Positions 16,337-62,900 of a DNA stretch of 64,000 bases are shown piece by piece. This DNA comes from an uncultured Flavobacteriaceae bacterium (GTDB lineage: Bacteria > Bacteroidota > Bacteroidia > Flavobacteriales > Flavobacteriaceae). The stretch lies in assembly GCA_947497145.1 (NCBI GenBank), contig CANMFQ010000001.1:248001-312000 (forward strand). The letters run 5' to 3'. Under the pieces are notes generated by a model, which saw nothing but the letters and a program-made list of their open reading frames with translations, did no database searches and was not told the origin of the DNA. Within the stretch, counting starts at the first letter, position 1; the number at the start of each line of letters is the position of its first letter. The position numbers and the translations under genes were made by a program.

Positions 16337-16673
16337 TCCGCTTTTTATGACTTCGTGATAAAACTTCTACTGCCTACGACAGGTTAAAATGAATGTGATA
16401 AAATTACGTGGGTGCATAAAATAAGTATCGCTTTTTTTCATATTGGCGGTATGCCATTTGTATACGCTGTCCTAATATGGTGGCTTGTTGGTGTACTTTT
16501 GAAGCTGTTTTTGGGTGTGATTACTTTTAAACATCTGAATTAAGTTGCATGCGTTACCTAATCAATATAACCTATCGATTTACTTCCTTGTAAGCAATAG
16601 TCTATAAGCGGTAGTTTGGCGTAAAATACGGTCAGTATGGCGTATTCCTAAAATCAGTATTCGCTATTTTTGT
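16337..16673. other. Intergenic region with a possible 30-aa hydrophobic ORF
   Basis: No gene of normal size. One open frame, 16451-16543 (+), would encode a 30-residue single-helix peptide, MPFVYAVLIWWLVGVLLKLF and ten more residues. It has no visible promoter and may be chance. Confidence 0.35.
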
Positions 16674-16681
16674 TATATTTG
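16674..16681 (+). promoter_or_regulatory. -7 promoter element of response-regulator gene
   Basis: TATATTTG is a perfect TAnnTTTG. It predicts a leader of about 85 nt for the 16775 gene, which includes a 17-codon upstream ORF (16710-16763). Confidence 0.55.
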
Positions 16682-16709
16682 CCAGCACTACAAACCAAAA
16701 AACCTAAAG

Positions 16710-16763
16710 ATGTCCCCTCATTTTACAGCAATCAAGTTTTTTAGTTGGTTTGTGCTGATTTAA
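16710..16763 (+). CDS. Possible 17-codon upstream ORF
   Basis: An ATG about 22 bases after the predicted transcript start opens a frame of 17 residues (MSPHFTAIKFFSWFVLI) that stops 11 bases before the response-regulator ATG. It could be a leader peptide or chance; there is no attenuator hairpin. Confidence 0.25.
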   Translation: MSPHFTAIKFFSWFVLI

Positions 16764-16774
16764 TCTATTGTTAT

Positions 16775-17179
16775 ATGGAGTTAAATGTTTGGATTATTGA
16801 TGATGATATGGTGTCGCAATTTGCTACAAGGTACTCCATTCAACAATCAAATACACCCTGTAGAGTTGTCACTTGCGACGGGGGCGAAGAGGCTTTCGAG
16901 ATGTTTTCAGAGCAATTTTCGCTTAACTCAAATACCCACAATATTATTTTTCTTGATCTGGTAATGCCAGGTATGGATGGTTGGCAGTTTTTAAATCAAT
17001 TATCGCGCATCAAAGGTTGGCGTAATTCAACAGATGTTTATGTTTTGTCGGCGTTCGCAAATTCTAAGGATCGCGTGCGTGCAAAAGAACACCCAGAAAT
17101 TCACGGTTTTTTTGACAAGCCGCTTTCTCGAAGTGTAGCTAATAGAATTATGCACGCTAAACGTGTTTCAAACAGCTAA
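16775..17179 (+). CDS. Single-domain response regulator
   Basis: The 134-aa receiver domain stands alone, CheY-like: acidic pocket D9-D10-D11, phospho-acceptor D61 in FLDLVMPGMDGW, conserved threonine/serine region YVLSAF and K115 in GFFDKPLS. The ORF continues upstream but I start at 16775 (MELNVWIIDDD), the usual distance before the acidic pocket. In Bacteroidota such regulators of the Rcp type serve hybrid kinases; no kinase is encoded in the window, so its partner is elsewhere. Confidence 0.92.
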   Translation: MELNVWIIDDDMVSQFATRYSIQQSNTPCRVVTCDGGEEAFEMFSEQFSLNSNTHNIIFLDLVMPGMDGWQFLNQLSRIKGWRNSTDVYVLSAFANSKDRVRAKEHPEIHGFFDKPLSRSVANRIMHAKRVSNS

Positions 17180-17213
17180 TAAAATCATTTTTACATTAAA
17201 GTCGCTGACAGCG

Positions 17214-18041
17214 CTAGGCAAGTATAGCATCAATAATTGTGTCTAGTGTATGGTGTTCTTCCTTATAGGTATTTAGCCAAACTGCCGTTTCATCATGGTC
17301 TAAAAAACTGTTTAAGGCTTCTGTAATTTCATTTTTGTGTGTTGCTGGCAAATGGGTGATAACATGAGTGAGATTGTGTACCAATTCTAAGGGTGATACA
17401 TGATTTTCACACAGCTTAAAGGCAATTTTTCCTGTGATGTCTAAAAATTTTATGTAATTCACTTTTGTAGTAATGGGGGTTTTAATGCCCAAGCGTTTAA
17501 AAATTTTGGTAACAGCCGTATTTGTTTGCCTACCCCAAATACCATCGATTAAAATTTCTTCTTCGTAAATATAACGCAATACCATTTGTACATATAGGGT
17601 TTCTGATTTGGCACCTTTGTCATAATCAACAGCCACGCTGGTATCTACATGCCAATGATCGCGGTGGTTTGGGTAATTGTAGTTTAAAACAATACCAAAA
17701 TGCTTACGTAAAAAAGATTCAATACCTAAATAGAGGGTTTTGTTATGCGGAAATTTTGAAGTCACCAAAGAAAGGTCATCTTTCCAAAAAATGGCATCCA
17801 AATCAAAGGCTTTGCCATGCCCATGTTGCCCCGGTTTGTTTACAAATATGCCAGCGGTGGTAATTACTTCTGGTTTGCCGTAAGGGCAGTATTCAAAAAC
17901 CTCTTGCAATGCACGTTCAAGCACCTTTAAAAAAGTAGTGTCAATTAAAAAATCACGTTGTATGCCTCTGGTGCCATACGGGTGGTTGGTTAATCGTGCA
18001 TAGTGAAGGGGAATGTTGTTGATGGTGTTAATTTTTTTCAT
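17214..18041 (-). CDS. Extensin-like/M15-type peptidase domain protein
   Basis: The 275-aa protein has an extensin-C/peptidase-M15-like zinc site: H73/H75 and D80 or D82 in GQHGHGKAFDLDAIFW, and DHWHVD near residue 130. This fold usually cleaves peptidoglycan peptides (D,D- or L,D-carboxypeptidase). A helical segment follows (LIDGIWGRQTNTAVTKIFKRLGI), which resembles a peptidoglycan-binding unit. No signal peptide is seen, so it may leave the cell by another route or act inside during lysis or recycling. It converges with the response regulator and stands alone. Confidence 0.75.
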   Translation of the reverse strand: MKKINTINNIPLHYARLTNHPYGTRGIQRDFLIDTTFLKVLERALQEVFEYCPYGKPEVITTAGIFVNKPGQHGHGKAFDLDAIFWKDDLSLVTSKFPHNKTLYLGIESFLRKHFGIVLNYNYPNHRDHWHVDTSVAVDYDKGAKSETLYVQMVLRYIYEEEILIDGIWGRQTNTAVTKIFKRLGIKTPITTKVNYIKFLDITGKIAFKLCENHVSPLELVHNLTHVITHLPATHKNEITEALNSFLDHDETAVWLNTYKEEHHTLDTIIDAILA

Positions 18042-18566
18042 TTCCTGTTAATTTTTGAGCATCCTCGGGTCATCATAATAGTCATAAATTAAGAAGACGG
18101 AAGTATATCGTATAGTTTTGGTTAAAAAATAGATACGCCATTATTTTAGTTTGGTTAGCACCTAAATGCAAGCTTGGTAAAGCAGCTATTTTATATTAGT
18201 TTGTACATTGGGGGGAGTAATATATAGCGCTTTGGGGGACAGAAAAATGTATTAAAAATACAACTAAGCTACAGTGAATGAAAGATATGGTACAAACAAG
18301 ATACGAATTTAAAAGATGTCAAGGGTAAATTATGGAACTTTTAATCACAGGTGATAGTCAAGAGATTAATTTTTTTAGCCAGCTTGGTAGTAAAAGCTAT
18401 TTTCTTAAAAGGGCAGTTCGTATCCTTAGTTAGTACTTCTTGCTTCTTTTTTTTGGTCAAAAAACGGGTGTCGTTTAGTGTTGTAGGATGATTTTTTAAT
18501 ACTCGCAAAAGGAAAAGAAAGAGTACACAGGTCAGTTTTAGGGGAGCCGAAGCTACACAAAAGCCA
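18042..18566. other. Intergenic region of about 525 bases
   Basis: No convincing gene. The best small frame (18332-18433, plus) would encode 33 residues beginning MELLITGDSQEINFF; nothing supports it beyond being open. No repeat or hairpin stands out. Confidence 0.35.
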
Positions 18567-46480: not shown

Positions 46481-46579
46481 TTAACACTGTGTTAACATGC
46501 TAACATTTACCTAACACTTTTACAATACATACTTAACATAGAGCTAACTCGACTTTTACAAGAGCGGAGTTTATTTGCG
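46481..46579 (+). promoter_or_regulatory. 11-bp-phased TTNACA array and promoter (Pho-box-like), TonB receptor
   Basis: Hexamers like TTAACA start at 46481 and 46492 (TTAACA both), and, in a second register, at 46500 (CTAACA), 46511 (CTAACA), 46533 (TTAACA), 46544 (CTAACT) and 46555 (TTTACA): steps of 11 or 22 bp. The last box is 15 bp upstream of TTTATTTGCG (46570-46579), the likely -7 region. PhoP of Bacillus binds TTNACA repeats at 11-bp spacing and PhoB boxes also repeat every 11 bp. Assignment to a phosphate regulator is inferred. Confidence 0.7.
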
Positions 46580-46610
46580 GCGGTATTTAATAACATAGTA
46601 AACTTATAAA

Positions 46611-49457
46611 ATGAAACAATTTTTGACCCTACTGCTCCTTGCAGTAATCGGAAACTTAAGTGCTCAAGATACGGGTAGTATTGTGGGTAAATTAACCGAT
46701 AAAGAAGTGAATAATGAGCCGCTGGCTTTTGCAAACGTACTTTTAAAAGGCACTACCAAAGGAACAACATCAGATTTTGATGGTCTTTATGAAATAGCGA
46801 ATATTACCCCAGGAAGCTATACTGTGGTTTTTAGCTATCTAGGTTATGAAACAGTAGAAGTTCCTAATGTAACTGTTGAAGCAGGTAAGGTGACAACTAT
46901 CAATATTCCAATGGCTGCTAATGCAGGGGTTGAGCTTGAAGGGGTTACCGTTACTACGGTGGCACGTAAAGATTCTGAAACAGCATTGCTTTTAGATCAA
47001 AAGAAAGCATCAACCTTAGAAACTTCAATTGGTGCACAAGAACTTATTAGAAAAGGTGCTGGAGATGCAGCAACTGCGGTAGGTAAAGTTACAGGGATAT
47101 CTAAAGAAGAGGGTTCTGGTAACGTATATGTACGAGGTTTGGGAGATCGCTTTAATATAACTACCTTAAATGGTTTGCCGCTACCATCAAACAATACTTC
47201 AAAAAAGAATATTGATTTAGGTATTTTTACAACCAGCATCATTCAGTCTATTGGAATTGATAAGACCTACAATGCAAAGAATTATGGTGATTTTGGAGGT
47301 GCTAATATTAATATTGTTTCTAGAAATTATGTAGGTTCTGGCTTTTTAGAGCTAGGGGCGCAATCAGGAGGAAATTCTGAGGCTATAGGGGTAAATCAGT
47401 TTTACTTAAACGATGGGCCAAACTTTTCAGGATTTTATGATCAGTCAATAGCTGATAACCCTTTTTCAAATAGCTTTACTACTAGCTGGGATAGGCAAAA
47501 AGCAGGAACTCCTTTAAACTCTGGTATTTCTTTAAAAGGAGGTGACTCGTATACTTTAGGAGAAAACACGCGGTTAAATTTCTTTGCTGTTGGTAGTTTT
47601 AGTAATAAATACGGTTACAGGCAAGGTGTGAATAGAGGTGCTCCAAATGTGGGTAATGGCTTAGCAAATTCAGATTTTAACTATGAGCGATTTAGCTATA
47701 AAACTGCTACAACGCTTATGGCTAATGCCGGTCTTAGATTAGGAGAGTCACATGCATTTAAATATAACTTTTTGTTATTAAATAATTCAGAGCAGAAGCA
47801 AGAAGAATTTTTAGGGATTATAGATAGAGAAGATGATGCGCCTGAGGGAGGTGGTTTTATTCAAAGAGCCACTTTTGATAGAACATCATTATATATACAT
47901 CAGTTGCTTGGTGAGCACGATCTTTCAGATAATGTTGAAGTTAATTGGGGTGCGGCATATAATTATGTTTTAAACGTAGTTCCTGATAGAAGGCAAAACA
48001 CCTTGTTGCCTGTTAGAAATAGTGAGCCTAATGGGCCCAAATCATTTGGTTTAGTTTCTGCAGCTTCAGAAAATCATCGATTCTTTCAAGATTTAGAAGA
48101 GGAAGAGATTGCAGCAAATATTGCAACAACATTCAAGTTTAAAGAGAACGAAGATGATGAATTTGATGGGAAATTAACCGTAGGATACAATGGTAGATTT
48201 AAGAATGTTGCTTTTGAGGCTGTACAATTTAACTATCAGTTTTTAGATGTAACTAATCAGCCAGAAGTTGATCCTAGAAATATAGATGCGTATTTTGAGC
48301 AAAATCCCTTGAGTTCAGGTCTTTATCAAATAAGAACTTTTCGTGGTCCGGCAACATTTGCAGATGCTCTTTTACCACAAACTTTTGGAGGAGAACAGCA
48401 AATAAATGCAGCCTATATCACTTTGGATTATAAATTCACTCCAAAACTTACACTTTTAGCAGGTTTTAGAGGTGAGCAAATAAACCAAGATATTAACTGG
48501 AATACCGTAATACAGGGTGAAGATGGAAATACCTTAAACGTATTTGAATTTTTGCCTTCATTAGCACTTAAATATGCACTTAACGATAAGCAGAATTTAA
48601 GATTTGCTTCAAGTAAAACCTATACGCTTCCTCAATTTAAAGAGCGCGCTCCTTTTCTTTTTCAAGAAGAAATTAATCAAGATTCTTTTGGTAACCCTTT
48701 CTTAAAAAATTCAATCAACTACAATTTTGATTTGCGATGGGAGCTGTTTCCAACAGCTAGCGAAATTGTATCACTGGGAGTATTTGGTAAGTTAATAGAA
48801 GATCCAATTAACACGTTCTTGGTGGTATCAGCCGCTAATGATTTGAGTTATGCAAATACAGGTGATAAAGCAACGGCATTTGGTGCAGAGCTTGAGGTTA
48901 GGTTAAACGTGTTTGAGAATGAAAAAGAAGTTGGTGAAAATTTGTTGAAAGAAAGATTTACTGTAGGAGGAAATGTGTCTTACCTCAATACCAATCAAGA
49001 GTTAGATTCTGAAAAGGTATCTTCAGAAACTGGTTTGTCTGCGGCATTCACAAATACTGAAGCTCCGCTGCAGGGGGCGTCTGATATAATTTTAAATGGA
49101 GATGTAAGCTATTTAAAGGAATTTGGTAAGGATAAAATTTTCAGCTCAACCATTGCTGCAAACTATTTTTCAAGCCGCTTATTTGCTTTAGGAAGCACAG
49201 GACGTGGGCATTTGATAGATCAAGGATTTTTGACTTTAGATGTAATTTCAAAACTGGAGTTTAATAAGCATTTTGCACTTGGTTTAAACCTTAAAAACTT
49301 ACTTAATCCATTAGTAGAAAGGGTCAATGAGAATGCTAAAGGTAATTTGGATGAAAATAACCCTGCGATACCAGGCTTTTTAGAAGATGGGCCATTAACA
49401 GTATTGTCTTACAAAAAGGGTGTTGATTTTTCACTCTCGCTTTCTTATAAATTTTAA
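46611..49457 (+). CDS. TonB-dependent receptor with carboxypeptidase-like N-domain
   Basis: The 948-aa outer-membrane protein has a signal peptide (to about 18), a carboxypeptidase-like regulatory domain (about 22-100, GSIVGKLTDKEVNNEPLAFANVLLKGTTKGTTSDFDGLYEI), a plug domain (about 140-225, VRGLGDRFNITTLNGLPLPS and YGDFGGANINI) and a barrel ending in KKGVDFSLSLSYKF. It moves a ligand across the outer membrane with TonB energy. It is not SusC-type (no SusD follows); the next gene is a beta-helix lipoprotein 47 bases downstream. The Pho-box-like promoter and the PiT transporter 4 kb away suggest a phosphorus source, but this is inferred. Confidence 0.92.
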   Translation: MKQFLTLLLLAVIGNLSAQDTGSIVGKLTDKEVNNEPLAFANVLLKGTTKGTTSDFDGLYEIANITPGSYTVVFSYLGYETVEVPNVTVEAGKVTTINIPMAANAGVELEGVTVTTVARKDSETALLLDQKKASTLETSIGAQELIRKGAGDAATAVGKVTGISKEEGSGNVYVRGLGDRFNITTLNGLPLPSNNTSKKNIDLGIFTTSIIQSIGIDKTYNAKNYGDFGGANINIVSRNYVGSGFLELGAQSGGNSEAIGVNQFYLNDGPNFSGFYDQSIADNPFSNSFTTSWDRQKAGTPLNSGISLKGGDSYTLGENTRLNFFAVGSFSNKYGYRQGVNRGAPNVGNGLANSDFNYERFSYKTATTLMANAGLRLGESHAFKYNFLLLNNSEQKQEEFLGIIDREDDAPEGGGFIQRATFDRTSLYIHQLLGEHDLSDNVEVNWGAAYNYVLNVVPDRRQNTLLPVRNSEPNGPKSFGLVSAASENHRFFQDLEEEEIAANIATTFKFKENEDDEFDGKLTVGYNGRFKNVAFEAVQFNYQFLDVTNQPEVDPRNIDAYFEQNPLSSGLYQIRTFRGPATFADALLPQTFGGEQQINAAYITLDYKFTPKLTLLAGFRGEQINQDINWNTVIQGEDGNTLNVFEFLPSLALKYALNDKQNLRFASSKTYTLPQFKERAPFLFQEEINQDSFGNPFLKNSINYNFDLRWELFPTASEIVSLGVFGKLIEDPINTFLVVSAANDLSYANTGDKATAFGAELEVRLNVFENEKEVGENLLKERFTVGGNVSYLNTNQELDSEKVSSETGLSAAFTNTEAPLQGASDIILNGDVSYLKEFGKDKIFSSTIAANYFSSRLFALGSTGRGHLIDQGFLTLDVISKLEFNKHFALGLNLKNLLNPLVERVNENAKGNLDENNPAIPGFLEDGPLTVLSYKKGVDFSLSLSYKF

Positions 49458-49504
49458 GTATAAACAGTAAACTTTTCATTTTTAACTAGAACAAATTTAA
49501 AACT

Positions 49505-51730
49505 ATGAAAAAAACAATTTTTTCTTTGATGTTGGCCCTTACTGCCGCGGTATTTATTGTCGCTTGTAGTAATAATGATGATGCGCCTTTAAACAATCCT
49601 ACTTGTAATGATGGTGTTCAAAATGGTGATGAAACAGGTGTTGATTGTGGTGGTTCATGTGAGGCATGTTCGGCTGATCAAGTTGAAATTTCTGGTAATG
49701 TAACAGAAAATACTACCCTAGATGCTACCAAAACTTATAATTTAACGGGAGCTTACATTGTAAAAGCTGGTGCTAAACTTACTATTCCGGCAGGAACCTT
49801 GATCAAAGCTGCTGGTGGTACAGCTGCTTTTATTGGTGTAGAAAAAGGAGCACAAATTGATATTCAAGGTACTGCTTCGGCGCCTGTTGTAATGACATCA
49901 GGAGCTGCTTCTCCTGCTGCTGGAGATTGGGGAGGGTTAGTAATTGCAGGTGATGCTCCTACCAATAAAGGCGATAATGTTGCTACTGAAGTTGGTGGCT
50001 TAATTTATGGAGGTTCTAATCCTGCTGATAATTCAGGGTCTATTCGTTATTTACGTGTAGAATACTCGGGGGCTACTTTTTCTAATGACAAGGAATTTAA
50101 TGGTGTGTCGTTATTCGGTGTAGGTTCAGGTACTACTTTTGAGTATGTGCAGTCATATAATGGAGGTGATGATGGTATTGAGTTCTTTGGAGGTACTGTA
50201 AATGGAAACAACCTTATATCAATTGGTAGTGGTGATGATTCTATCGATTTTGCTGATGGTTGGACGGGTAATGGTTCTAACTGGTACATTGCTGGAGGAG
50301 CAAAGGCTGGTATAGAAGGGTCAAATAATGGCGATGATGGAAACGCTATTCCTTTAACTACCACTACATTGTCTAATATTACCGTTGTTGGGCCAGTAAC
50401 TGAAGGGGCGCTTTATTTCAAAGAAGGTGGAGGAAACTTTACTGTAAACAACTTTTATACTAGTGGCATAGATTTAGGAATTCGTGTAAAAAGTACCGAT
50501 ACTGAAGCTAATGCAAGAATAGATGGAGATGACTTGACTATAAGCAATATTCAATTTGCTGACGTTGCTGAAGGGTTTGAAGCAACAAATTATGAAGGTG
50601 ATAATACTGATTTTTATACCGAAGGTGTTGCAACAGGTGCTGGTAATGGTGCTGATGCTCCTGATTGGGCTGCCGGATGGACTATAGGTTTAGATAATAG
50701 TGCTCCAGCTACTAGCGAGAATTTAGCTGGCGAAATTACGACTGATGTTACTTTGAGTGCGACTACAGCATACTTGCTTACAAGTGGTTTAGTTATTAAA
50801 TCTGGTGGTTCTTTAACCATACCAGCAGGAACAACAATAAAAGCTTCTGGCGGTACAGCTGCTTTTATTGGAGTAGAAAGAGGAGCGCAGATTTTTATCA
50901 ACGGTACAGCTTCTAATCCAGTGGTAATGACATCTTCATCTGAGAATCCTGCGCCGGGTAACTGGGGTGGATTGGTTATTGCTGGTAATGCACCAACAAA
51001 TAAAGGAGTTGATGTTGTTACAGAAGTTGGAAACCTTATGTACGGAGGTACTGATGCTGCTGATAACTCTGGTTCTATTCGTTATTTAAGAATAGAGTAT
51101 ACGGGAGCTACTTTTTCAAACGACAAGGAGTTTAATGGTGTTTCGTTATTTGGTGTCGGATCGGGTACAACTTTTGAGTATGTGCAGTCATTACATGGAG
51201 GTGATGATGGTATTGAGTTTTTTGGTGGTACGGTATCAGGTAATTACCTAGTTTCTATAGGTAGTGGTGATGATTCTATTGATTTTGCTGACGGTTGGCA
51301 AGGTAATGGTACTAACTGGTATATTAAAGGTGGTGCAAAAGCCGGTATAGAAGGATCGAATAATGGAGATCAAGGAAATGCCACTCCATTAACTACAACA
51401 ACACTTAGCAATATTACCGTTGTTGGTCCTGTTGCTGAAGGGGCTCTATACTTTAAAGAAGGTGGTGGTAAATTTACTATCGATAACTTTTATACAAGTG
51501 GCATTGATTTAGGTATAAAGGTAAAAGATACCGATGCGGAAGCTAATGCGAGAATAGCTGGAGGTGACCTTGTAATTACCAATATCAAGTTTGATGCTAC
51601 AGCATCAGGTTTTGAAGAAACAGATTATACAGGAAGTGAATCTTTTTATACGACAGGTAATGCAACTGGTGCCGGAAATGGTGCTGATGCACCTGATTGG
51701 GCTGCTGGTTGGACAACTGGTTTGGAATAA
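49505..51730 (+). CDS. Duplicated beta-helix surface lipoprotein
   Basis: The 741-aa product has a lipoprotein signal (VFIVACSNND, cysteine 21), a cysteine-rich CNDGVQNGDETGVDCGGSCEAC segment (about 33-56), and two right-handed beta-helix halves of about 340 residues. Each half runs from TLDATKTYNLTGAYIVKAG or TLSATTAYLLTSGLVIKSG to NGADAPDWAAGWT and includes FEYVQSYNGGDDGIEFFGG and GSGDDSIDFADGW. The duplication is visible in DNA. Such lipoproteins follow TonB receptors in many Bacteroidota and may bind the imported ligand at the surface. Substrate unknown. Confidence 0.85.
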   Translation: MKKTIFSLMLALTAAVFIVACSNNDDAPLNNPTCNDGVQNGDETGVDCGGSCEACSADQVEISGNVTENTTLDATKTYNLTGAYIVKAGAKLTIPAGTLIKAAGGTAAFIGVEKGAQIDIQGTASAPVVMTSGAASPAAGDWGGLVIAGDAPTNKGDNVATEVGGLIYGGSNPADNSGSIRYLRVEYSGATFSNDKEFNGVSLFGVGSGTTFEYVQSYNGGDDGIEFFGGTVNGNNLISIGSGDDSIDFADGWTGNGSNWYIAGGAKAGIEGSNNGDDGNAIPLTTTTLSNITVVGPVTEGALYFKEGGGNFTVNNFYTSGIDLGIRVKSTDTEANARIDGDDLTISNIQFADVAEGFEATNYEGDNTDFYTEGVATGAGNGADAPDWAAGWTIGLDNSAPATSENLAGEITTDVTLSATTAYLLTSGLVIKSGGSLTIPAGTTIKASGGTAAFIGVERGAQIFINGTASNPVVMTSSSENPAPGNWGGLVIAGNAPTNKGVDVVTEVGNLMYGGTDAADNSGSIRYLRIEYTGATFSNDKEFNGVSLFGVGSGTTFEYVQSLHGGDDGIEFFGGTVSGNYLVSIGSGDDSIDFADGWQGNGTNWYIKGGAKAGIEGSNNGDQGNATPLTTTTLSNITVVGPVAEGALYFKEGGGKFTIDNFYTSGIDLGIKVKDTDAEANARIAGGDLVITNIKFDATASGFEETDYTGSESFYTTGNATGAGNGADAPDWAAGWTTGLE

Positions 51731-51780
51731 TTCTATGTTTGATTGGGCTACAGGAAACTAAGCCTTAATTAAATACCACT

Positions 51781-51808
51781 GAAAGCCCTGCTGAAAAGCG
51801 GGGTTTTC
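51781..51808 (+). terminator. Terminator of TonB receptor operon
   Basis: A 12-bp stem with two G-T pairs (GAAAGCCCTGCT / AGCGGGGTTTTC), GAAA loop, followed by a run of T, 50 bases after the stop. Confidence 0.8.
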
Positions 51809-51880
51809 TTTTTTTTAGTATAGATGACTGTGCCCATTATTAGAAAATATTACCACGCTTACATTTCTCAATAAGAACAC

Positions 51881-51949
51881 TTAACCTTTTGGTTAAATAC
51901 AATTAATGTGCGCTTAACGGTAATTTTACATTACGGGCTTTTATTTGCG
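51881..51949 (+). promoter_or_regulatory. 11-bp-phased TTNACA array and promoter (Pho-box-like), CarboxypepD gene
   Basis: In an exact 11-bp register lie 51881 TTAACC, 51892 GTTAAA, 51903 TTAATG, 51914 TTAACG and 51925 TTTACA. The last is 15 bp upstream of TTTATTTGCG (51940-51949). The TTTACA box, the spacing and the 10-mer are all identical to the promoter at 46555-46579; the nine bases between differ. Confidence 0.7.
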
Positions 51950-51970: not shown

Positions 51971-52363
51971 ATGAAAAATGTATTTTTAACGGCTGTTTTT
52001 CTATTTGCGACAACCTTCTTTTTACAAGCACAAGGTACAATAAAGGGTAATGTAGTGGATACTGCTTTGAACAATGAACCTATATTGTTTGCGAATGTGC
52101 AATTAAAGGGTACAAATATTAGTCAACAAACAAACTTTCATGGAAATTTTGAATTTTCAGAAATCACCCCAGGGAAGTATATAGTGATGATTAGTTATAC
52201 GGGTTATGAAACTAAGGAAATAGCTGTTGTTGTAAAAGACAATACAATCAACAAAGTCGAAGCAGGTTTGGCGCCAATAACAATAAATTTTGAAGATGTT
52301 TCAGGCTTAGAAACAATAGTAACTAAGAATGAAAACGTGGTTTCTTTTGTTGAGAAAGAATAA
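51971..52363 (+). CDS. Orphan carboxypeptidase-like regulatory domain protein
   Basis: The 130-aa secreted protein (signal peptide to QAQ) is just the CarboxypepD_reg-like domain normally found at the N-terminus of TonB receptors: GTIKGNVVDTALNNEPILFANVQLKGTNISQQTNFHGNFEFSEITPGKYIVMISYTGYE. It resembles residues 22-100 of the receptor encoded 5 kb upstream (DKEVNNEPLAFANVLLKGTT). No plug or barrel follows. It may bind a partner or be a truncated receptor copy. It has its own Pho-box-like promoter, so it seems to be expressed on purpose. Confidence 0.82.
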   Translation: MKNVFLTAVFLFATTFFLQAQGTIKGNVVDTALNNEPILFANVQLKGTNISQQTNFHGNFEFSEITPGKYIVMISYTGYETKEIAVVVKDNTINKVEAGLAPITINFEDVSGLETIVTKNENVVSFVEKE

Positions 52364-52484: not shown

Positions 52485-52844
52485 CTAATCGCGACTTACA
52501 ATGCCTTCTGTACTTTTAGTTTCATTAACCGCTGCAATGGCATTGTTGCTATACTCCACTTCTTTAAGTGTATTATTTGCCCAAAACAACCATTTTCCTG
52601 TTTTTACACCATTTTCATAAGACCCAGTAGAAATGGCTTTGCCTTCTTCATTATAACTTATCCATTCGCCATGTAACTTTTTATTAAGATTAAAAGTTCC
52701 TTTTTGACTAATTTTTCCGTTAGGGTGAAAATAGGTGGCTTCTATTAAATTTGTTTCCTTATTTAGCTTCATTTCTGGTTTTGATTGAGCAAAAGACGCT
52801 GCGCAAACAAATAGTAAAGCTAGGAGTATTATATTTTTTTTCAT
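52485..52844 (-). CDS. YwqK/MORN-like small secreted protein
   Basis: I start at 52844 (MKKNIILLALLFVCAASFAQ), a clean signal peptide; an ATG three codons upstream is possible. The 119-aa product has MORN-like strands as in the YwqK antitoxin family: YFHPNGKISQKGTFNLNKKLHGEWISYNEEGKAISTGSYENGVKTGKWLFWANNTLKEVEY. A toxin partner is absent and the protein is exported, so antitoxin function is unlikely. A perfect TATATTTG promoter (52870-52877) is next to a cluster of TTNACA boxes. Confidence 0.78.
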   Translation of the reverse strand: MKKNIILLALLFVCAASFAQSKPEMKLNKETNLIEATYFHPNGKISQKGTFNLNKKLHGEWISYNEEGKAISTGSYENGVKTGKWLFWANNTLKEVEYSNNAIAAVNETKSTEGIVSRD

Positions 52845-52869
52845 GATTTGCATTTTTAGTATGATGTTA

Positions 52870-52921
52870 CAAATATAGGTATTTTACATTAAATCTACTA
52901 TTTGTTAACGTTAAATTTACA
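52870..52921. promoter_or_regulatory. Third TTNACA cluster, next to a minus-strand promoter
   Basis: Minus-strand TATATTTG (52870-52877) is a perfect -7 element for the YwqK-like gene. Directly beside it, plus-strand hexamers at 52883 (TTTACA), 52894 (TCTACT), 52905 (TTAACG) and 52916 (TTTACA) keep an exact 11-bp register. The boxes point towards the phosphate transporter, so which gene they control is unclear. Confidence 0.5.
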
Positions 52922-53070: not shown

Positions 53071-53133
53071 CATAAAATGAATTATAGTGTCACTTTTGTC
53101 ATCACCTAATTTTAGGTTTTAGAATTGAATGTA

Positions 53134-55377
53134 GTGGGAGAGAATATATACCTTTTTATGATCATTGCATTGGCTGCACTAGCGATTACCGACTTGGTAG
53201 TGGGAGTGAGTAACGATGCCGTTAATTTTTTAAATTCAGCAATAGGTTCTAAAGCTATTTCTTTTAAAACCATTATGATTGTTGCTAGTGTTGGTATTGC
53301 ATTTGGTGCGATGTCCTCTAGCGGTATGATGGAAGTTGCCAGGAAGGGTATTTTTACCCCTTCTGAATTTGTTTTTGCAGAAATCATGATCATCTTTATG
53401 GCAGTTATGATTACCGATATTTTGCTGCTCGATTTTTTCAATACATTAGGTATGCCTACGTCTACTACGGTATCGATTGTATTTGAGCTTTTGGGTGCTG
53501 CTGTGGCTATTTCGTTGGTGAAAATAATAGGTGCTGATGCTAGCTTTAGTGAATTGAGTAATTATATCAATACAGAAAAGGCTACACAAATTATTCTTGG
53601 CATTCTGTTGTCTGTAGTAGTTGCTTTTTCTGTAGGTGCTGTTGTTCAGTTTGTTTCGCGTATTCTTATTTCTTTCAGGTTTACAGAACGACCAAAATGG
53701 GTAGCTGCTTTATTTGGTGGCTTTGCAATTACTTCCATTATCTATTTTATTATTGTAAAAGGTTTAAAAAGTGCGGCTATTTTTAGTCCTGAAATTTTAG
53801 GATTTATTGGAGAAAATCCAGCGCTTTTTTTAGGGTTAAACTTTTTGTTTTGGTCTTTAGTATCGCTACTGCTTACGAGTTTGTTTAAAATTAATATTTA
53901 TACCCTTATTATTGTGCTAGGTACTTTTGCCCTTGCAATGGCTTTTGCTGGTAATGATTTAGTCAATTTTATAGGTGTACCATTAGCTGCTTTAGAGTGG
54001 TATAACTCATGGTCACAGTCAGGTGTAGATGCTGCCAGCTATACCATGGAAGACCAACCTATTCAAACACCTACCATCCTGTTATTGGCTTCAGGTATTA
54101 TTATGGTGGTTACCTTATGGTTTTCATCAAAGGCTAAAAACGTTGTTAAAACTAGTGTTGATTTATCGCGACAAGATGAAGGTGACGAGCGTTTTGAGCC
54201 AAACTTTTTGTCACGCATAATTGTAAAATTTTCCATACAAGCTTCAGAAAGTCTTGGAGGTTTGGTGCCAAAAGTAATCACAAAAAAAATAGATAACCGA
54301 TTTGAAAAGCCGTATGTATATGTGCCTAAGAGTCGAGTACAAGATATGCCTGCCTTTGATTTGGTAAGGGCTGCGGTAAATTTAATGGTAGCGAGTGTGC
54401 TAATTTCTTTAGCAACCTCAATGAAATTGCCTTTATCTACAACCTATGTTACCTTTATGGTTGCTATGGGTACTTCGTTGGCAGATCGTGCATGGGGATC
54501 TGAAAGTGCCGTATATCGTGTTGCTGGTGTGCTTAATGTGATTGGTGGATGGTTCTTTACTGCCATAAGTGCTTTTGTAGCTGCTGCTATCATAGCGTAT
54601 GTTATTCATTTGGGTGGAATTTTGGCGGTTTGTACCCTGTTAATTATTGCCTTTTTATTAATTGTGAGAAATTATTTGTCGCACAATAAAAAAATAAAAG
54701 AAACCAAGCTCGAAGCAAAACTTAAAAAATCGGAGAGCAATTCTATCATGGAGATTATAGAAGAGAGTTCTTCAAATATGTCACTTGCTTTTGATAGAGC
54801 TAACAAAATATATACTCAGGCTATCGATGGCCTAGCGAAACATGATATTGATAGACTTAAAAAGAGTAAAAAAGGAATCAAAAAATTGAATGACGAAGTA
54901 GAAGATCTTAGAAATAATATCTTTTATTTCATCAAAAACCTTGATGAAGCTAGTGTGGGAGCAAGTAATTTTTATATTACTGCATTAAGTTATTTACAAG
55001 ATATGACACAGTCTTTAGACTATATTTCTAAGGCCAGTTACAAGCATGTGAATAATAACCACAAAAAGCTACGCTTTAATCAAATCAAAGACTTAAAAGA
55101 GACGGATCAATTCATAGAGAATCTCTTTGTTGATATAAAAGCTATTTTCGATACTAAAAATTACGAAGAGCTTACCAAGATAATCATGAATAAGCAGGAA
55201 CTTGTTGAAAAGCTTGATCAAAAAATATTAAAGCAAATTGAACGTACTCGTACCGATGAATCGAGTCCAAAAAATACAGCGCTATATTTTAGCTTATTAC
55301 AAGAGACTAAAGATTTATTGCAGGCGACTGTGAATTTATTAGAAACCTACGACCAAAACGTTAACCTTCCTAGCTAG
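53134..55377 (+). CDS. PiT-family phosphate transporter with PhoU-like domain
   Basis: The protein (about 747 aa) has the PiT signature twice (ITDLVVGVSNDAVNFLNSAIGSKA near the start and PLSTTYVTFMVAMGTSLADRAWG around residue 435), with about twelve membrane segments, and a cytosolic C-terminal PhoU-like helical domain (about 545-735, SNSIMEIIEESSSNMSLAFDRANKIY). It imports inorganic phosphate using an ion gradient. The start is non-ATG: GTG at 53134, three codons into a frame opening with TTG at 53125, is my choice because homologues start close to ENIYLFM. The PhoU-like part may gate transport. Confidence 0.9.
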   Translation: MGENIYLFMIIALAALAITDLVVGVSNDAVNFLNSAIGSKAISFKTIMIVASVGIAFGAMSSSGMMEVARKGIFTPSEFVFAEIMIIFMAVMITDILLLDFFNTLGMPTSTTVSIVFELLGAAVAISLVKIIGADASFSELSNYINTEKATQIILGILLSVVVAFSVGAVVQFVSRILISFRFTERPKWVAALFGGFAITSIIYFIIVKGLKSAAIFSPEILGFIGENPALFLGLNFLFWSLVSLLLTSLFKINIYTLIIVLGTFALAMAFAGNDLVNFIGVPLAALEWYNSWSQSGVDAASYTMEDQPIQTPTILLLASGIIMVVTLWFSSKAKNVVKTSVDLSRQDEGDERFEPNFLSRIIVKFSIQASESLGGLVPKVITKKIDNRFEKPYVYVPKSRVQDMPAFDLVRAAVNLMVASVLISLATSMKLPLSTTYVTFMVAMGTSLADRAWGSESAVYRVAGVLNVIGGWFFTAISAFVAAAIIAYVIHLGGILAVCTLLIIAFLLIVRNYLSHNKKIKETKLEAKLKKSESNSIMEIIEESSSNMSLAFDRANKIYTQAIDGLAKHDIDRLKKSKKGIKKLNDEVEDLRNNIFYFIKNLDEASVGASNFYITALSYLQDMTQSLDYISKASYKHVNNNHKKLRFNQIKDLKETDQFIENLFVDIKAIFDTKNYEELTKIIMNKQELVEKLDQKILKQIERTRTDESSPKNTALYFSLLQETKDLLQATVNLLETYDQNVNLPS

Positions 55378-57200: not shown

Positions 57201-58712
57201 TTACGATTGAGATACTTGTTTATAGTGTAACAACCATGGATCTTTTTTCTTTTTCAGGCTTTGAAACAACTGCTTTTTTAATGTGTTTTCTATATCCTTT
57301 TGTTGGTCTGCTAAATTGTAAAGCTGCCATGGGTCTTTGATATTGTCGAATAATAAAGTGCGAACCTGATCATTATCATCAATAGTCACCACGTAGGTGT
57401 GGGTCTTTGTGCGTATACCTCTATGGCCAGAAGCAGGTTTACCTTCCTCAATATAATAGTATAGTGCAGTATCAGGCTTTTGTCCTTGCCCATTAAGAAT
57501 AAGCGATGAAAGATCTTGCCCATCAAGGTTGAGTGGTATTCCGTCTGTAGCACCAAGCATGTTTAACAATGTCGGCATGATATCTGTAACGCTGATGAGG
57601 TAGTCCTTTTTTTGACCAGCTGCTATTTTTTTAGGCCATTTGATGATGAAGGGGACATTTATTGCCTCTTCATACCATACGTTTTTAGACATCAAGCCAT
57701 GACTGCCCATCATTTCACCATGGTCTGAAGTGATTACAACTATGGTGTTATCTGCTAGCCCTTGCTCTTCTAAGGTTTTAATTACGCGTCCTATTTGCTC
57801 ATCAACACCCGTAATCATTGCAAAATAATCTCTAACATGCTTCTCTGCCAATGCTGTACGATTCCTCGTTGCACCATTATGAAAAGCTAGTGCATCAGTT
57901 TTACCTTTTAAATTAACATTTTTCCTGAGTAATAGTTCTTTTAAGGGCTTGTTTTTATAAGCTTCTAAATAGTTTTCAGGAACATATTGGTAGGGTGGGT
58001 GTGGAGGGTTTACAGACCAAAAAAGGGCAAAAGGTTTTGAATCGTCTCTAGTGTTTTGCCCTTTGTTTTTTATGTAATCGATGATGACGTCGGCCTCATG
58101 CTTGGGAGACCATTCGTTTACCTCAAAAACTTCTTCTTCCTTTGCATCGTTTATCCAATAATGTGGTTTGTTATGCTGATCAAAAGTTCCGTAGGAATAC
58201 CAAAAATTAAACCCATGACGTTCTTCTTTTGGGGTATAGGCATCCCATATTACGGTATCTTTATCGGCGATTGGAGGAGGTGAAGTTAGGTGTAGTTTCC
58301 CCACATAGCCAGCATCATAACCATTTTTTACTAATACATCAGAAAAACTAATATCACTTTTTTGCCAAGAGTTATTGTATTTGTATCTATTAGAATTTGC
58401 ATTGCTCAATACTGAATTACGATACGGTAAAACCCCTGTCATTAACATTGCTCTATATGGACTACAAAGAGGGAAATTACTGATAGCGTTAGAAATTAAC
58501 ATACCTTCTTTAGCCAATTGATTAATATGGGGGGTGTAAACAGGGTCTTGTTTGTTGATGCCAACTGCGGCATTGCGAAACTGGTCAGGAAAGATGAATA
58601 ATAAATTAGGAGCATTTGCTGTATTTTTTTCATGTGAAGGAGCACATGAGACCAATGCAATTACCAGAGATTTTATAAAGAATAAATAAATACTTTTTTT
58701 TAAACAACGCAT
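57201..58712 (-). CDS. Type I (formylglycine) sulfatase, lipoprotein
   Basis: I start at 58712 (MRCLKKSIYL), giving 503 aa with a lipoprotein signal (IALVSC, cysteine 23). The sulfatase signature C83-S-P-Y-R87 (SNFPLCSPYRAMLMTG) carries the cysteine that is changed to formylglycine, and metal ligands appear in LLFIFPDQFRN (D43) and VVITSDHGEMMGSHG. It removes sulfate esters from sugars. It is divergent from a large PL8-type lyase gene, so sulfated glycosaminoglycan-like polymers are the likely substrate. An anaerobic or FGE-type maturase is not in the window. Confidence 0.92.
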   Translation of the reverse strand: MRCLKKSIYLFFIKSLVIALVSCAPSHEKNTANAPNLLFIFPDQFRNAAVGINKQDPVYTPHINQLAKEGMLISNAISNFPLCSPYRAMLMTGVLPYRNSVLSNANSNRYKYNNSWQKSDISFSDVLVKNGYDAGYVGKLHLTSPPPIADKDTVIWDAYTPKEERHGFNFWYSYGTFDQHNKPHYWINDAKEEEVFEVNEWSPKHEADVIIDYIKNKGQNTRDDSKPFALFWSVNPPHPPYQYVPENYLEAYKNKPLKELLLRKNVNLKGKTDALAFHNGATRNRTALAEKHVRDYFAMITGVDEQIGRVIKTLEEQGLADNTIVVITSDHGEMMGSHGLMSKNVWYEEAINVPFIIKWPKKIAAGQKKDYLISVTDIMPTLLNMLGATDGIPLNLDGQDLSSLILNGQGQKPDTALYYYIEEGKPASGHRGIRTKTHTYVVTIDDNDQVRTLLFDNIKDPWQLYNLADQQKDIENTLKKQLFQSLKKKKDPWLLHYKQVSQS

Positions 58713-59006
58713 GGTGTTACTATTCTTTGTTATGAATTTTTTGTATAAATAATACCTCAATATAAGCATAATTAGTATGAGGTAGGGGAACATCACTTTC
58801 AAATCTAAAGGTTTTGGCCTAGTACAAAGTAGCAAAAATAAACCCGATTTCACTGCCAACGGATATACCCGTAATAGGAACAAAAAAAAATAAGATGTTC
58901 AAAGTAAGGATAGTGCATTTCATATGCTGTAAGAATTTTGTATATTCAAGCGTTGCTAAATTCTGTTATAAAAACTGAAAATACGTACTAATTTAATATA
59001 TGTGAT

Positions 59007-62000
59007 ATGAAAAAATGTATACTTGCTTTGGCTTTTCCGTTCATGAGTCTTTTTGCTGTTCATGGGCAGATAGCTTCGTTAGGTAATAATAATTGGGAGC
59101 CTATTGGTAATGCAAATATTGTTACCATTAATTCAGATGGTGATAATGGAGACGGTGTAAGTGATGGAGCGCAAATGGTACGTAACTTATCGTCAGGCGT
59201 AGGGCATGGCATGCGTTATACTTTTGATGGAAGTATGAAGGAAGGTGAGCAACTTAATTTTGAAACGTATGTGTTTAACCCGCAAGCATCATATGTAAAA
59301 ATTCAAATTGACCTCTATAATAAAACAGATGATATAGTGCTGACCAGTTCTGAAGGCGTCGTCATGACGTCTGGCGTAGTGAAGCATATTATTTTAAATT
59401 ACACACCTTTGGCTGCTGATGAAGGTGATCAACTTCAAGTTCGATATATACGTGTTGATGATGGTAATACTGCTCGTTCGTTTGCAATAGATAATGCTCA
59501 ATTAAATGAAGCATACCTTTTTCCTGAAGCACCCCCTGCCGCTTCTTGTTTTGATGATACTGGAGCTGAAGCAGGATGGGATAGAATTGGCGATGTATCG
59601 CTTACCAAAGTTACCAACGATGGAGATAATGGCGATGGTCAAAATGATGGTGCTTTGGCATTAGTTTCTTTATCATCTGGCGCAGGTGTAGATCAAGGTT
59701 CTTTTTATGCTTTTGATTGCCTTATGTCAACAAATCAAACTTTACAAATAGAGACCGTTGTTTATAATAACAGAAATTCTTACGTAAGGGTAGATGTGCA
59801 ATTGTATAATAGCACAGATGATGTAGTTATTGCAAGCACAGGAGCTACGCCAGTTCTAGCTAATGCTACCAAAACAATGGGGTTGACGTATTTAACTGAA
59901 GGAACTGATGACGGAGACCAATTACAATTACGTTATTTAAGGGCTGATGATGGCAATCCAGTACGCAGTTTTAATATTGATTGGGCTACTATTAATGGAA
60001 CTAGCTTGAATATGAATGTTATAGCCCCTCCTTTGAACCCATTATGTGCTCTTGGTATCGATGTTCAGCCAGATATAGCTTTAGAAGCGGTCACTGCGCA
60101 AGAAGTTGCGCAGGCTGAAAAAGTGTACAATACGCTTAGCGATACCTATTTAGGAACAGAGGTTACGGATGATTTTCAGGATCAAATGGATCAGGCTTTA
60201 TTAGATTATGATGGTTTAAATATTACAAAAGAGGGTGTTAATATCAACGGAGAAGATACTTCTTTTCGAAATGCAGGAAGTATTGTTTCTGCATTTGCAA
60301 AATATCTCAAGTTTGTTAACCCAAACGACACTCTTGTGGCTCAAAAGGCTGCTAAGGTTGTTGAACTGGTCTCACAGCAATTTTGTAAAGGTATTATTTT
60401 GCTAGATGGAAACGCCTATGATTTTAGACGTTTTGCTCGTCCTGTCATGTATTTAAAAGACTATCTTTCAGATAGTGTAAAAGACCAGTTTGGCTATGTG
60501 CTCGATGCTCAAACAAGAAATTTTCAGAATTTTTGGGGTGATTATCAAGAAGGTCAAGAGTATAATACAGATTGGATGTATAATATGGGTGAGCTAATGG
60601 TGCTGTACGGTATTTGGAGATACCCAAACAATGATGAAGAAAAAGTGCGATATTTAAAAGGAGGTAAGCGCTATATTGAACGTTTTCTTACCTATTCTGA
60701 TGGCACTGGTGATGGGGTAAAACCTGATGGAACCGGCTTTCATCATTGGACTGCTTATGATAATTACATGTACTCATTTTCTACAACAATAAATATAATA
60801 GCGGCTTTTGATGATACAAATTATCAGATTGATAAACCGTATTATTTTGTGATGAGAGATGCGATTTTTGCACAAAAAATGATAGCTAATGATGCCGGAA
60901 TGAGAGCGTTTTCAATGAGTGGAAGATCTCCTGGTACTAGATATGTTAGTACTGGACAAAATGAGGTAAGAAAGCTGGCTATCAGTGGTGGTAAAATCTT
61001 AGGCCTTTCAACGGCTGATCCAATATTGGCAGGGTATCATAACCGTGTATGGGGAAACGAATCTGATTTTAATTATACGACTGTTGCTCCCTATGAGGAG
61101 GGATTTTTACAATTGAATCACGGTCATGCAGGGGTTTTTAGAAAAGACAATTGGACGGCTGTTTTTAAAGGATTTAGTAATAATATGTGGGGTGCAGAAC
61201 TTTATAGTAACGCTAATAGGTATGGTCGGTATCAAAGCTATGGCGCGGCAGAGATCTTATATCCCGGAGGAATTGAAATGGATGGAAATGGTTTCGATGT
61301 AGAAACTTGGGATTGGAATCACAACCCGGGAACCACAGTGATTAAGCTTCCGTGGGAAAAACTTCAGGGTGAACGTTCTAGAATAGACGAGCTACAACAA
61401 AAGCGTTTTGTGGGGGCATTAGCATTTGATAATAAAGGTGAAGATTTGGGTGCACTCAAAAAAACATACGGTACTTATGGTGTTTTTGCCATGGATTTTC
61501 AGGAAATGGAGAATCAGGGGTTTGGAATCTCATACGGACCCAATACCCATAATGGCTCCTTTACGTTTAAAAAATCATATTTTACTTTTGATGATATTAT
61601 TGTTTGCCTAGGGTCGGGCATTTCCAATAATGATGCCGACAACCCTACAGTAACTACACTGTATCAGCGTACAGCAAACAACCAAAGTGGCGTAACGGTA
61701 AATTCAGCCTTTTATGGTACTGGTGAGCACAGTTTTTTTGATGCTCAAGATAATTGGGTAGTTGATGATTTTAATACCGGCTTTTATGTAGTTTCAGGAA
61801 GTGGAGATTTAAAAATAAGAAAGGGCAATCAGCAAACACCAAACCAAAATGAGATTGATTCAAATGGGTATTTAGATAATGCTATTGGTATGTATACCCT
61901 GGGTTATATTGATCATGGTACAGAACCTGTTGATGCCGCTTATGAGTATGTGATAAAGCCTAACGCAATAGCAAGCGATATGGAGGCAATGGCTGCAAGA

Positions 62001-62900
62001 AAGCCGTATACCGTTTTAGAAAAATCTGTTAATAGACATGTGGTCAAACATAATACTGATAACATATGGGGCTATTCACTTTTTGAACCTTCGACTGATT
62101 TAGATTATGAAGATGGACTCATAAAAGCAAATGATGCTCCTTGTTTAGTTATGTATAAGAAGCAATATAACAGGCGCATCTTGTTGTCTATGACCGATCC
62201 TGATTTGGGGTTTAAATCAAGAGCGAATGATCCTGCGCTTGTTAAAAACGTATTATTAACGTTACATGGTCAATGGTCACTTTCTCAACCGCATAAACAG
62301 GTAACTAAAGTGGCTATCACAGATAGTACTACGACACTTCAGTTTACAGTTGAGGATGCCTTGGCAGTTGAGGTCAGTTTGGTGAAGCGTAAAGCGGTTA
62401 AAAAAATACATTTGATACCCTCTGTTGTCCGAAATTTAAAAGTAGATGACACCTATAGACTTAAAGGATTTGTGATTCCACATAATGCAACTGATGTAAA
62501 TTTGGTTTGGAATTCAGAAGATGAAACTGTTGCGACTATTGATCAAAAAGGGCTAATTACGGGAGTAACTCCAGGAAATACCCTTATTACACTTAGCGAT
62601 ACAGGAACTGGAAAATTTGATACTGTAGAAGTAATTGTGAGTCCTCGTAATGGTGGCGCATCAGGAGGGACACTAATTGTTTATCCAAACCCAACAAGAT
62701 TTATTCTTTTTGCAAAAACGCAAAAACATATAGCAAAATACGAGATTTACGACCATGCAGGCAAAGTGAGACTGTCTCGGTCAAACCTTAGAGGAAAAAG
62801 AATAATTATTCCGGTTTATAGTTTAAAAAGAGGAATTTATATACTTAAAGTTACAGATAAAAAAGGACACACCATTTCTCAACAGTTTATTAAAGAGTGA
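59007..62900 (+). CDS. Secreted PL8-superfamily polysaccharide lyase, type IX secretion cargo
   Basis: The 1297-aa protein has a signal peptide (to about 20), two related modules of about 150 residues (NSDGDNGDGVSDGAQMVRNL... and TNDGDNGDGQNDGALALVSL..., probably carbohydrate-binding), then the lyase. Catalytic residues match the PL8 plan: N526 (WMYNMGEL), H580 and Y589 nine residues apart (FHHWTAYDNYMYS) and R640 (SMSGRSPGTR). A Big2 domain (KKIHLIPSVVRNLKVDDTYRL ... GVTPGNTLITL) and a Por-type sorting domain (LIVYPNPTRFILF ... RGIYILKVTDKKGHTISQQF) end it. PL8 enzymes cleave hyaluronan, chondroitin, xanthan or alginate-like uronic polymers by beta-elimination. Confidence 0.9.
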   Translation: MKKCILALAFPFMSLFAVHGQIASLGNNNWEPIGNANIVTINSDGDNGDGVSDGAQMVRNLSSGVGHGMRYTFDGSMKEGEQLNFETYVFNPQASYVKIQIDLYNKTDDIVLTSSEGVVMTSGVVKHIILNYTPLAADEGDQLQVRYIRVDDGNTARSFAIDNAQLNEAYLFPEAPPAASCFDDTGAEAGWDRIGDVSLTKVTNDGDNGDGQNDGALALVSLSSGAGVDQGSFYAFDCLMSTNQTLQIETVVYNNRNSYVRVDVQLYNSTDDVVIASTGATPVLANATKTMGLTYLTEGTDDGDQLQLRYLRADDGNPVRSFNIDWATINGTSLNMNVIAPPLNPLCALGIDVQPDIALEAVTAQEVAQAEKVYNTLSDTYLGTEVTDDFQDQMDQALLDYDGLNITKEGVNINGEDTSFRNAGSIVSAFAKYLKFVNPNDTLVAQKAAKVVELVSQQFCKGIILLDGNAYDFRRFARPVMYLKDYLSDSVKDQFGYVLDAQTRNFQNFWGDYQEGQEYNTDWMYNMGELMVLYGIWRYPNNDEEKVRYLKGGKRYIERFLTYSDGTGDGVKPDGTGFHHWTAYDNYMYSFSTTINIIAAFDDTNYQIDKPYYFVMRDAIFAQKMIANDAGMRAFSMSGRSPGTRYVSTGQNEVRKLAISGGKILGLSTADPILAGYHNRVWGNESDFNYTTVAPYEEGFLQLNHGHAGVFRKDNWTAVFKGFSNNMWGAELYSNANRYGRYQSYGAAEILYPGGIEMDGNGFDVETWDWNHNPGTTVIKLPWEKLQGERSRIDELQQKRFVGALAFDNKGEDLGALKKTYGTYGVFAMDFQEMENQGFGISYGPNTHNGSFTFKKSYFTFDDIIVCLGSGISNNDADNPTVTTLYQRTANNQSGVTVNSAFYGTGEHSFFDAQDNWVVDDFNTGFYVVSGSGDLKIRKGNQQTPNQNEIDSNGYLDNAIGMYTLGYIDHGTEPVDAAYEYVIKPNAIASDMEAMAARKPYTVLEKSVNRHVVKHNTDNIWGYSLFEPSTDLDYEDGLIKANDAPCLVMYKKQYNRRILLSMTDPDLGFKSRANDPALVKNVLLTLHGQWSLSQPHKQVTKVAITDSTTTLQFTVEDALAVEVSLVKRKAVKKIHLIPSVVRNLKVDDTYRLKGFVIPHNATDVNLVWNSEDETVATIDQKGLITGVTPGNTLITLSDTGTGKFDTVEVIVSPRNGGASGGTLIVYPNPTRFILFAKTQKHIAKYEIYDHAGKVRLSRSNLRGKRIIIPVYSLKRGIYILKVTDKKGHTISQQFIKE

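Follow-up and report, generated by a model that had tools for sequence, protein, structure and literature searches.

A probable flavobacterial Pho box in two promoters around a TonB-dependent receptor and lipoprotein

We analysed a 64,000-nucleotide stretch of DNA from an uncultured Flavobacteriaceae bacterium (contig CANMFQ010000001.1, positions 248,001 to 312,000; hereafter the window, GC 36%), in which two promoters, one before a TonB-dependent receptor and its lipoprotein and one before a gene for a small free-standing CarboxypepD-like protein, carry arrays of short direct repeats resembling a Pho box. An earlier note on this DNA had proposed that these genes are turned on by phosphate shortage. 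The genes and promoter features concerned are as follows, in window positions.

46481..46497, + strand: upstream pair TTAACA-N5-TTAACA (46481 and 46492, 11 bp apart), 3 bp out of the register of the main array
46501..46560, + strand: main Pho-box-like array, half-sites at 46501, 46512, 46523 (weak), 46534, 46545 and 46556
46570..46577, + strand: -7 promoter box TTTATTTG of the receptor gene (consensus from PMC9723704)
46611..49457, + strand: TonB-dependent receptor with an N-terminal CarboxypepD domain, 948 amino acids, of the same type as Fjoh_0545 of Flavobacterium johnsoniae
49505..51730, + strand: lipoprotein with two similar strand-rich (beta-helix-like) repeats, 741 amino acids, of the same type as Fjoh_0546 (FII)
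51882..51930, + strand: second Pho-box-like array, half-sites at 51882, 51893 (weak), 51904, 51915 and 51926
51940..51947, + strand: -7 promoter box TTTATTTG of the CarboxypepD gene, read from the sequence
51971..52363, + strand: free-standing CarboxypepD-like secreted protein, 130 amino acids, a relative of the receptor's N-terminal domain
52485..52853, - strand: MORN_2-repeat secreted protein, kept beside PiT in many relatives
52884..52921, + strand: third, weaker array before PiT, half-sites at 52884, 52895, 52906 and 52917 (14.3 bits, E 0.235)
53125..55377, + strand: PiT-family phosphate transporter (Pfam match, PF01384)

There are exactly two copies of TTTATTTGCG in the window, 46570-46579 and 51940-51949, and in both promoters the final TTTACA (46555-46560 and 51925-51930) begins 15 bp upstream of its copy, just as the earlier note had described; between the end of that TTTACA and the -7 box lie 9 bp in each case. 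The joint pattern YTNAC-N6-YTNAC-N10-TNNNTTTG has two matches on both strands of the 64 kb, which are the two promoters, and in 100 dinucleotide shuffles of the window it reached a mean of 0.02 matches, none of the shuffles giving two. The 11-bp register that the note had reported holds in both promoters, but the TTNACA hexamer that it had assigned to the repeats does not: the second promoter has a true TTNACA at its final repeat alone and reads TTAACG, TTAATG and TTAAAT at the rest. The feature common to both promoters is therefore a register of cores, T(A/T)A(C/T), at 11-bp intervals, and not a hexamer. Likewise, the repeats do end just upstream of the core promoter, but what follows them is not the -10 region the note had named: TTTATTTG is unlike an E. 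coli-type -10 and matches, save at its second base, the Bacteroidota (flavobacterial) -7 box, given as TAnnTTTG at -12 to -5 (PMC9723704). From the position of this box, transcription would start near 46582 and 51952. Both promoters thus show two of the marks of a Pho box, in that their direct repeats are spaced at 11 bp and sit immediately before the core promoter element. The third array, before PiT, is without TTTG at the 15-bp spacing.

The arrangement is conserved at related receptor loci. Receptor orthologs (E<=1e-100) were found in 49 of 118 related genomes, with 50 matches, and 30 of these loci were used for comparison. The pattern TAAC-N6-TTTACA-N9-(T/C)nnnTTTG, allowing up to two mismatches in its ten fixed bases, lies within 300 bp upstream of the receptor in 23 of these 30 loci, against an expectation of 0.08, and an alignment of the 23 promoters places the repeats at columns 2, 13, 24 and 35, together with the -7 box. 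We also compared 80 named loci with their flanks, the best 80 of 557 relatives in a scan of genome contigs. A TonB-dependent receptor is followed by an FII-type lipoprotein in the window and in 78 of the 80; a homolog of the PhoB-like regulator discussed below stands adjacent to the receptor and divergent from it in 35; and either the regulator or PiT is present in 63. PstS-type genes lie 3-9 kb from the receptor in three genomes (G016, G020 and G071), so that the receptor is linked to phoBR-like genes, to PiT and, in some relatives, to pst genes.

Half-sites trained on the 23 receptor promoters only were then scored on the 250 bp before 1267 open reading frames (ORFs) of the 80 loci, with cut-offs set at percentiles of 868 "other" regions, a class that includes some mislabelled relatives of target genes (e.g. 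in L076, L108 and L147), which raises the cut-off. Scores above the 99th percentile were obtained for 52/70 receptor promoters and all 11 receptor paralogs, and, among gene classes outside the training set, for 9/11 CarboxypepD, 11/17 porin, 9/27 and 13/56 lipoprotein and 5/28 PiT promoters, the shuffle expectation for these four classes being 0.02-0.2 matches; among the controls the figures were 0/23 for dxs, 0/44 for the kinase, 0/28 for morn and 0/29 for dgt. The spacing is specific: at the 95th percentile, 80/144 test regions pass with a period of 11, against 32/144 for the next best period, 14, and 9-32/144 across periods 7-10 and 12-16. High scorers without a class label include PstS-like and PstC-like proteins (L096, L088 and L134, identified by eye) as well as additional porin-like proteins, and of 15 pstS-type loci five reach the 99th percentile (two of them from one genome) and seven exceed the 97th. 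Within the window, where 45 ORFs were scored, the receptor ranks first, PiT second (99.4 percentile), ORF 63157 third and the CarboxypepD gene fourth. A transporter-like gene upstream of porin-PiT in Aquimarina, ChrA-like by eye, has one of the highest repeat scores; relative to the receptor it lies at -6805 in L119, -6842 in L120 and -2026 in L141.

Whole-genome searches were made with two models, R1 built from receptor promoters only and R2 from 57 sites; they score the best 150 or 95 candidates per genome, and weak sites may be missed. In the bacterium's own 5.1-Mb genome, R1 gives the receptor promoter 39.8 bits and ranks the CarboxypepD promoter second with 24.2, the next candidate having 14.4. 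Over 59 related genomes, R2 yields 78 matches at E<=0.02, in 37 genomes, which we assigned by position and downstream genes. The proportion within the phosphate gene set rises with stringency, from 66/78 at E<=0.02 to 53/57 at E<=1e-3 and 40/40 at E<=7.4e-6. Twenty of the 66 are receptor promoters, and the rest precede CarboxypepD genes, lipoprotein-receptor operons, porin-PiT, PiT, porin-pstSCAB-phoU, an Na/Pi cotransporter, and genes beside pst and phoBR-like genes. The best match of all (genome G020, E 6.6e-10) stands before genes for Porin_O_P, a PstS-type protein, PstC, PstA, an ABC ATPase and PhoU; neither the pst operon nor the lipoprotein-first operons were in the R2 training set. A further mark of a Pho box, presence before pst and other phosphate-uptake genes, is thus found in porin-pstSCAB-phoU, porin-PiT and the Na/Pi cotransporter. 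In Flavobacterium hibernum the receptor promoter is the only strong match, with a full-matrix score of 50.2 vs at most 4.7 for the weaker ones.

The twelve matches outside the phosphate set precede another TonB receptor (L285), proteins of 190 and 283 amino acids with no known function (L290 and L309), a recX-like gene (L291, by eye), a DUF4056 protein (L310) and, in L294 and L312, an aspS-like gene beside MORN (by eye); two have no downstream gene (L308 and L313), two are in the own genome (C9:187655 and C1:282913), and one is at G084:C48. In L294 and L312 (genomes G043 and G023 between them) the match falls between the MORN gene and the aspS-like gene.

The candidate regulator encoded in the own genome, G000:C5, and the kinase adjacent to it have PhoB and PnpS/PhoR as their best-matching models, both below the cut-offs; by way of calibration, the PhoB model TIGR02154 matched in 12 of 14 control genomes and its cut-off was passed in two. 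Homologs of G000:C5 are linked to phosphate transport genes: in G080 and G084 they border a cluster that contains a PstS-type gene (PF12849), with pstCAB and phoU recognised by eye, and in Aquimarina loci (e.g. L076, L109, L116, L118, L135 and L141) they stand beside PiT. At L064 10402-10671 (G000:C5), 27 bases upstream of the genome's own phoB equal, with one base different, the intergenic DNA between phoB and receptor in Zobellia russellii; it is possible that the receptor once stood beside this phoB and then moved, the 27-base stretch being a relic.

Taken together, these observations make it highly probable, in our judgement, that both promoters carry a flavobacterial Pho box and that phosphate shortage and the PhoB-type regulator G000:C5 switch the genes on. 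Pho control by a PhoB-type regulator is a well-supported prediction because the element recurs before phosphate genes and because the receptor pair adjoins a phoBR-like gene pair in many genomes, as in the induced F. johnsoniae locus; binding by G000:C5 itself, and activation in this organism, we infer. In the mechanism we propose, phosphate shortage would lead to phosphorylation of G000:C5, with its adjacent PhoR-like kinase. The phosphorylated regulator would bind in tandem, on one face of the DNA, to the Pho box of each promoter, in which four to five half-sites would share an 11-bp register, with 9 bp between the end of the array and the -7 box; once bound it would stand in for an upstream promoter element and recruit RNA polymerase. 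This would switch on the receptor-lipoprotein operon and the CarboxypepD gene, and probably PiT as well.

Several results weigh against this interpretation. The regulator reaches only 205.6 of the 296.2 bits of TIGR02154 and 202.4 of the 270 of NF053854, its two best models. Its own promoter exceeds the 99th percentile in 2/42 loci, and the phoB of the own genome has no array directed towards it (35.6 percentile). In this genome, too, the two window promoters are the only strong matches, and two more, at E ~0.01, stand before no phosphate gene; the same genome has no match to PhoU (E<=1e-3), PstS of the PF12849 type (E<=1e-10) or PhoX (PF05787, E<=1e-20). Because receptor and CarboxypepD sites and four porin (porin-PiT) sites were in the R2 training set, matches before those genes are partly circular, and four of the 66 assignments are lenient: one 728 bp before PiT (G027), one 378 bp before a porin (G009), and those in G080 and G084, where the protein encoded downstream has a Pfam match below threshold or none at all and has pst and phoBR-like genes as neighbours. 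Among half-site scores, the 95th percentile is exceeded by 8/29 dgt regions, whose intergenic DNA is also that of the receptor, and four of the 15 pstS-type loci lie at or below the 43rd. None of five promoters of a second porin type, that of Fjoh_0542, which is without induction in F. johnsoniae (PMC8115612), exceeds the 99th percentile, and none of eight from two further Flavobacterium lipoprotein groups, which we assume from their number to be Fjoh FI and FIII, exceeds the 98th. Finally, of the sites that the earlier note had expected before pst genes and phosphatases, those before the pst operon appeared and those before the PhoA and PhoX phosphatases did not: 0/10 PhoA-type promoters scored exceed the 99th percentile (12 loci), and an array is present at 0/4 PhoX promoters scored (5 loci, one with too short an upstream region). 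The note's interpretation is supported in part: phosphate control, by the transport genes and the phoBR-like linkage, and not the sites before phosphatases. Phosphatase promoters are not taken here as a defining feature of every Pho regulon. Near the receptor pair of Zobellia russellii, L072 encodes (16342-18147, - strand) an alkaline phosphatase that also matches GDPD_2, a combination of domains reported in F. johnsoniae PhoA1.

Of the other explanations, the one that survives best, though we think it unlikely, is that a different OmpR-family regulator with a similar half-site responds to another signal and has phosphate genes as part of its targets. PhoP of Riemerella anatipestifer, with a TTTAACA core and 583 peaks (PMC9603813), is a regulator of that kind, deletion of its phoPR raised pstS 8-fold (PMC5399024), and the own genome encodes further such regulators, e.g. 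G000:C33, which scores 208 bits for PhoB; yet the regulator that is linked to the element is of the C5 type, divergent from the receptor in those 35 of 80 loci and beside pst in two other families, and no close C33 homolog adjoins the receptor in these loci. A shared duplication of related receptor and CarboxypepD genes together with their upstream DNA would also make the two promoters alike, and the CarboxypepD protein is indeed 41% identical to the receptor's N-terminal domain (residues 4-112), but we consider this very improbable, as the element also precedes unrelated genes (porin, PiT, the pst operon and the Na/Pi cotransporter) and the sites differ outside the repeats and the -7 box. Chance, in AT-rich intergenic DNA where TAAC words are frequent, is refuted for the promoters as a set by the shuffle expectations of 0.02 (window) and 0.08 (30 receptor loci) and by the prominence of period 11, and scarcely deserves credence, even though at 36% GC ORF 63157, which is not known to have a part in phosphate biology, scores at the 99.0 percentile, 2/150 sampled other regions pass the cut-off vs 0.43 expected from shuffles, and single weak sites may be due to it.

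The lipoprotein is duplicated, as the earlier note had seen, its halves being 76% identical to each other. Its first repeat has a confidently predicted, strand-rich fold (predicted local distance difference test score, pLDDT, 96.2), for which Foldseek ranks a pectate lyase (E 0.004) and tailspikes highest, with no hit reaching E<=0.001; a PDB sequence search with the lipoprotein returned nothing at E<=0.01. It is plausible that receptor and lipoprotein together capture and import a phosphorus-bearing ligand. The free-standing CarboxypepD gene is predicted to be co-regulated with the receptor, placed either before it or after the lipoprotein; a CarboxypepD domain of this kind also lies directly upstream of the receptor in L105, L124, L130, L131, L132 and L144. 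Just past the phosphate cluster, at 57201-62900, the window encodes a sulfatase, as well as a polysaccharide lyase of family PL8 that has a type IX secretion system (T9SS) sorting tail.

A broader proposal, on which we see the balance as even, is that this Pho box of four to five 11-bp half-sites, 15 bp from the -7 box, is the Flavobacteriales' own and may define a narrow core regulon confined to transport: the TonB receptor, the beta-helix lipoprotein, the receptor's N-terminal domain as a free-standing protein, the porin, PiT or Pst, and the Na/Pi transporter. Phosphatases would be under other control, and the CarboxypepD protein would act in trans on the co-regulated receptor. Phosphate limitation shapes marine and soil Bacteroidota. 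A defined element would allow their phosphate regulon to be predicted from sequence, would connect a receptor and lipoprotein that are so far uncharacterised with phosphorus scavenging, and would separate a transport core from the phosphatases.

Among the closest known systems is, at the level of genes, the PUSIV locus of F. johnsoniae (phoBR-Fjoh_0545-0546; Fjoh_0543-0546), in which phosphate depletion induces the TonB-dependent receptor Fjoh_0545 (log2 fold change 8.02) and the FII lipoprotein Fjoh_0546 (9.91) in an operon with phoBR (PMC8115612). The window has the same receptor-lipoprotein pair, which is phoBR-adjacent in many relatives; in F. hibernum (L085) the genes run porin-PhoR-PhoB-receptor-lipoprotein, and the receptor has all three Pfam families given for Fjoh_0545 as well as two others, the F. 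johnsoniae protein being compared by description only. Unlike PUSIV, the window pair is at a distance from phoBR and has dxs, dgt and PiT as neighbours, and its lipoprotein is duplicated. The terms "pho box", "motif" and "promoter" are absent from the main text of PMC8115612. At the level of regulators, R. anatipestifer PhoP, also a flavobacterial member of the OmpR family, has a similar core, TTTAACA, obtained by DNA affinity purification sequencing (DAP-seq) and likened to that of E. coli ArcA; section 5 of that account gives no array length, -7 box spacing or phosphate regulon for it (PMC9603813), and in the phoPR deletion pstS rose and did not fall (PMC5399024). PhoB of Bacteroides fragilis is likewise a Bacteroidota PhoB with a pst target, required for pstC expression in low phosphate and shown by electrophoretic mobility shift assay to bind the pst promoter on a 512-bp fragment (PMC3547664); the text of that paper lacks the words "motif" and "consensus". 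PMC4796936 mentions Pho boxes predicted for plcP clusters in marine bacteria, in passages that give no sequence, and our partial literature search turned up no Pho-box sequence or logo for Bacteroidota beyond the R. anatipestifer PhoP core. A counterpart in form is the Pho box of E. coli PhoB and its relatives, two 11-nucleotide direct repeats (PMC4415409). Like it, the window element consists of 11-bp direct repeats that end just before the core promoter of phosphate-uptake genes; unlike it, the element has a T(A/T)A(C/T) core, four to five half-sites and a fixed 15-bp distance to a Bacteroidota -7 box, and the targets found here are uptake and transport genes, with no PhoA or PhoX promoters among them.

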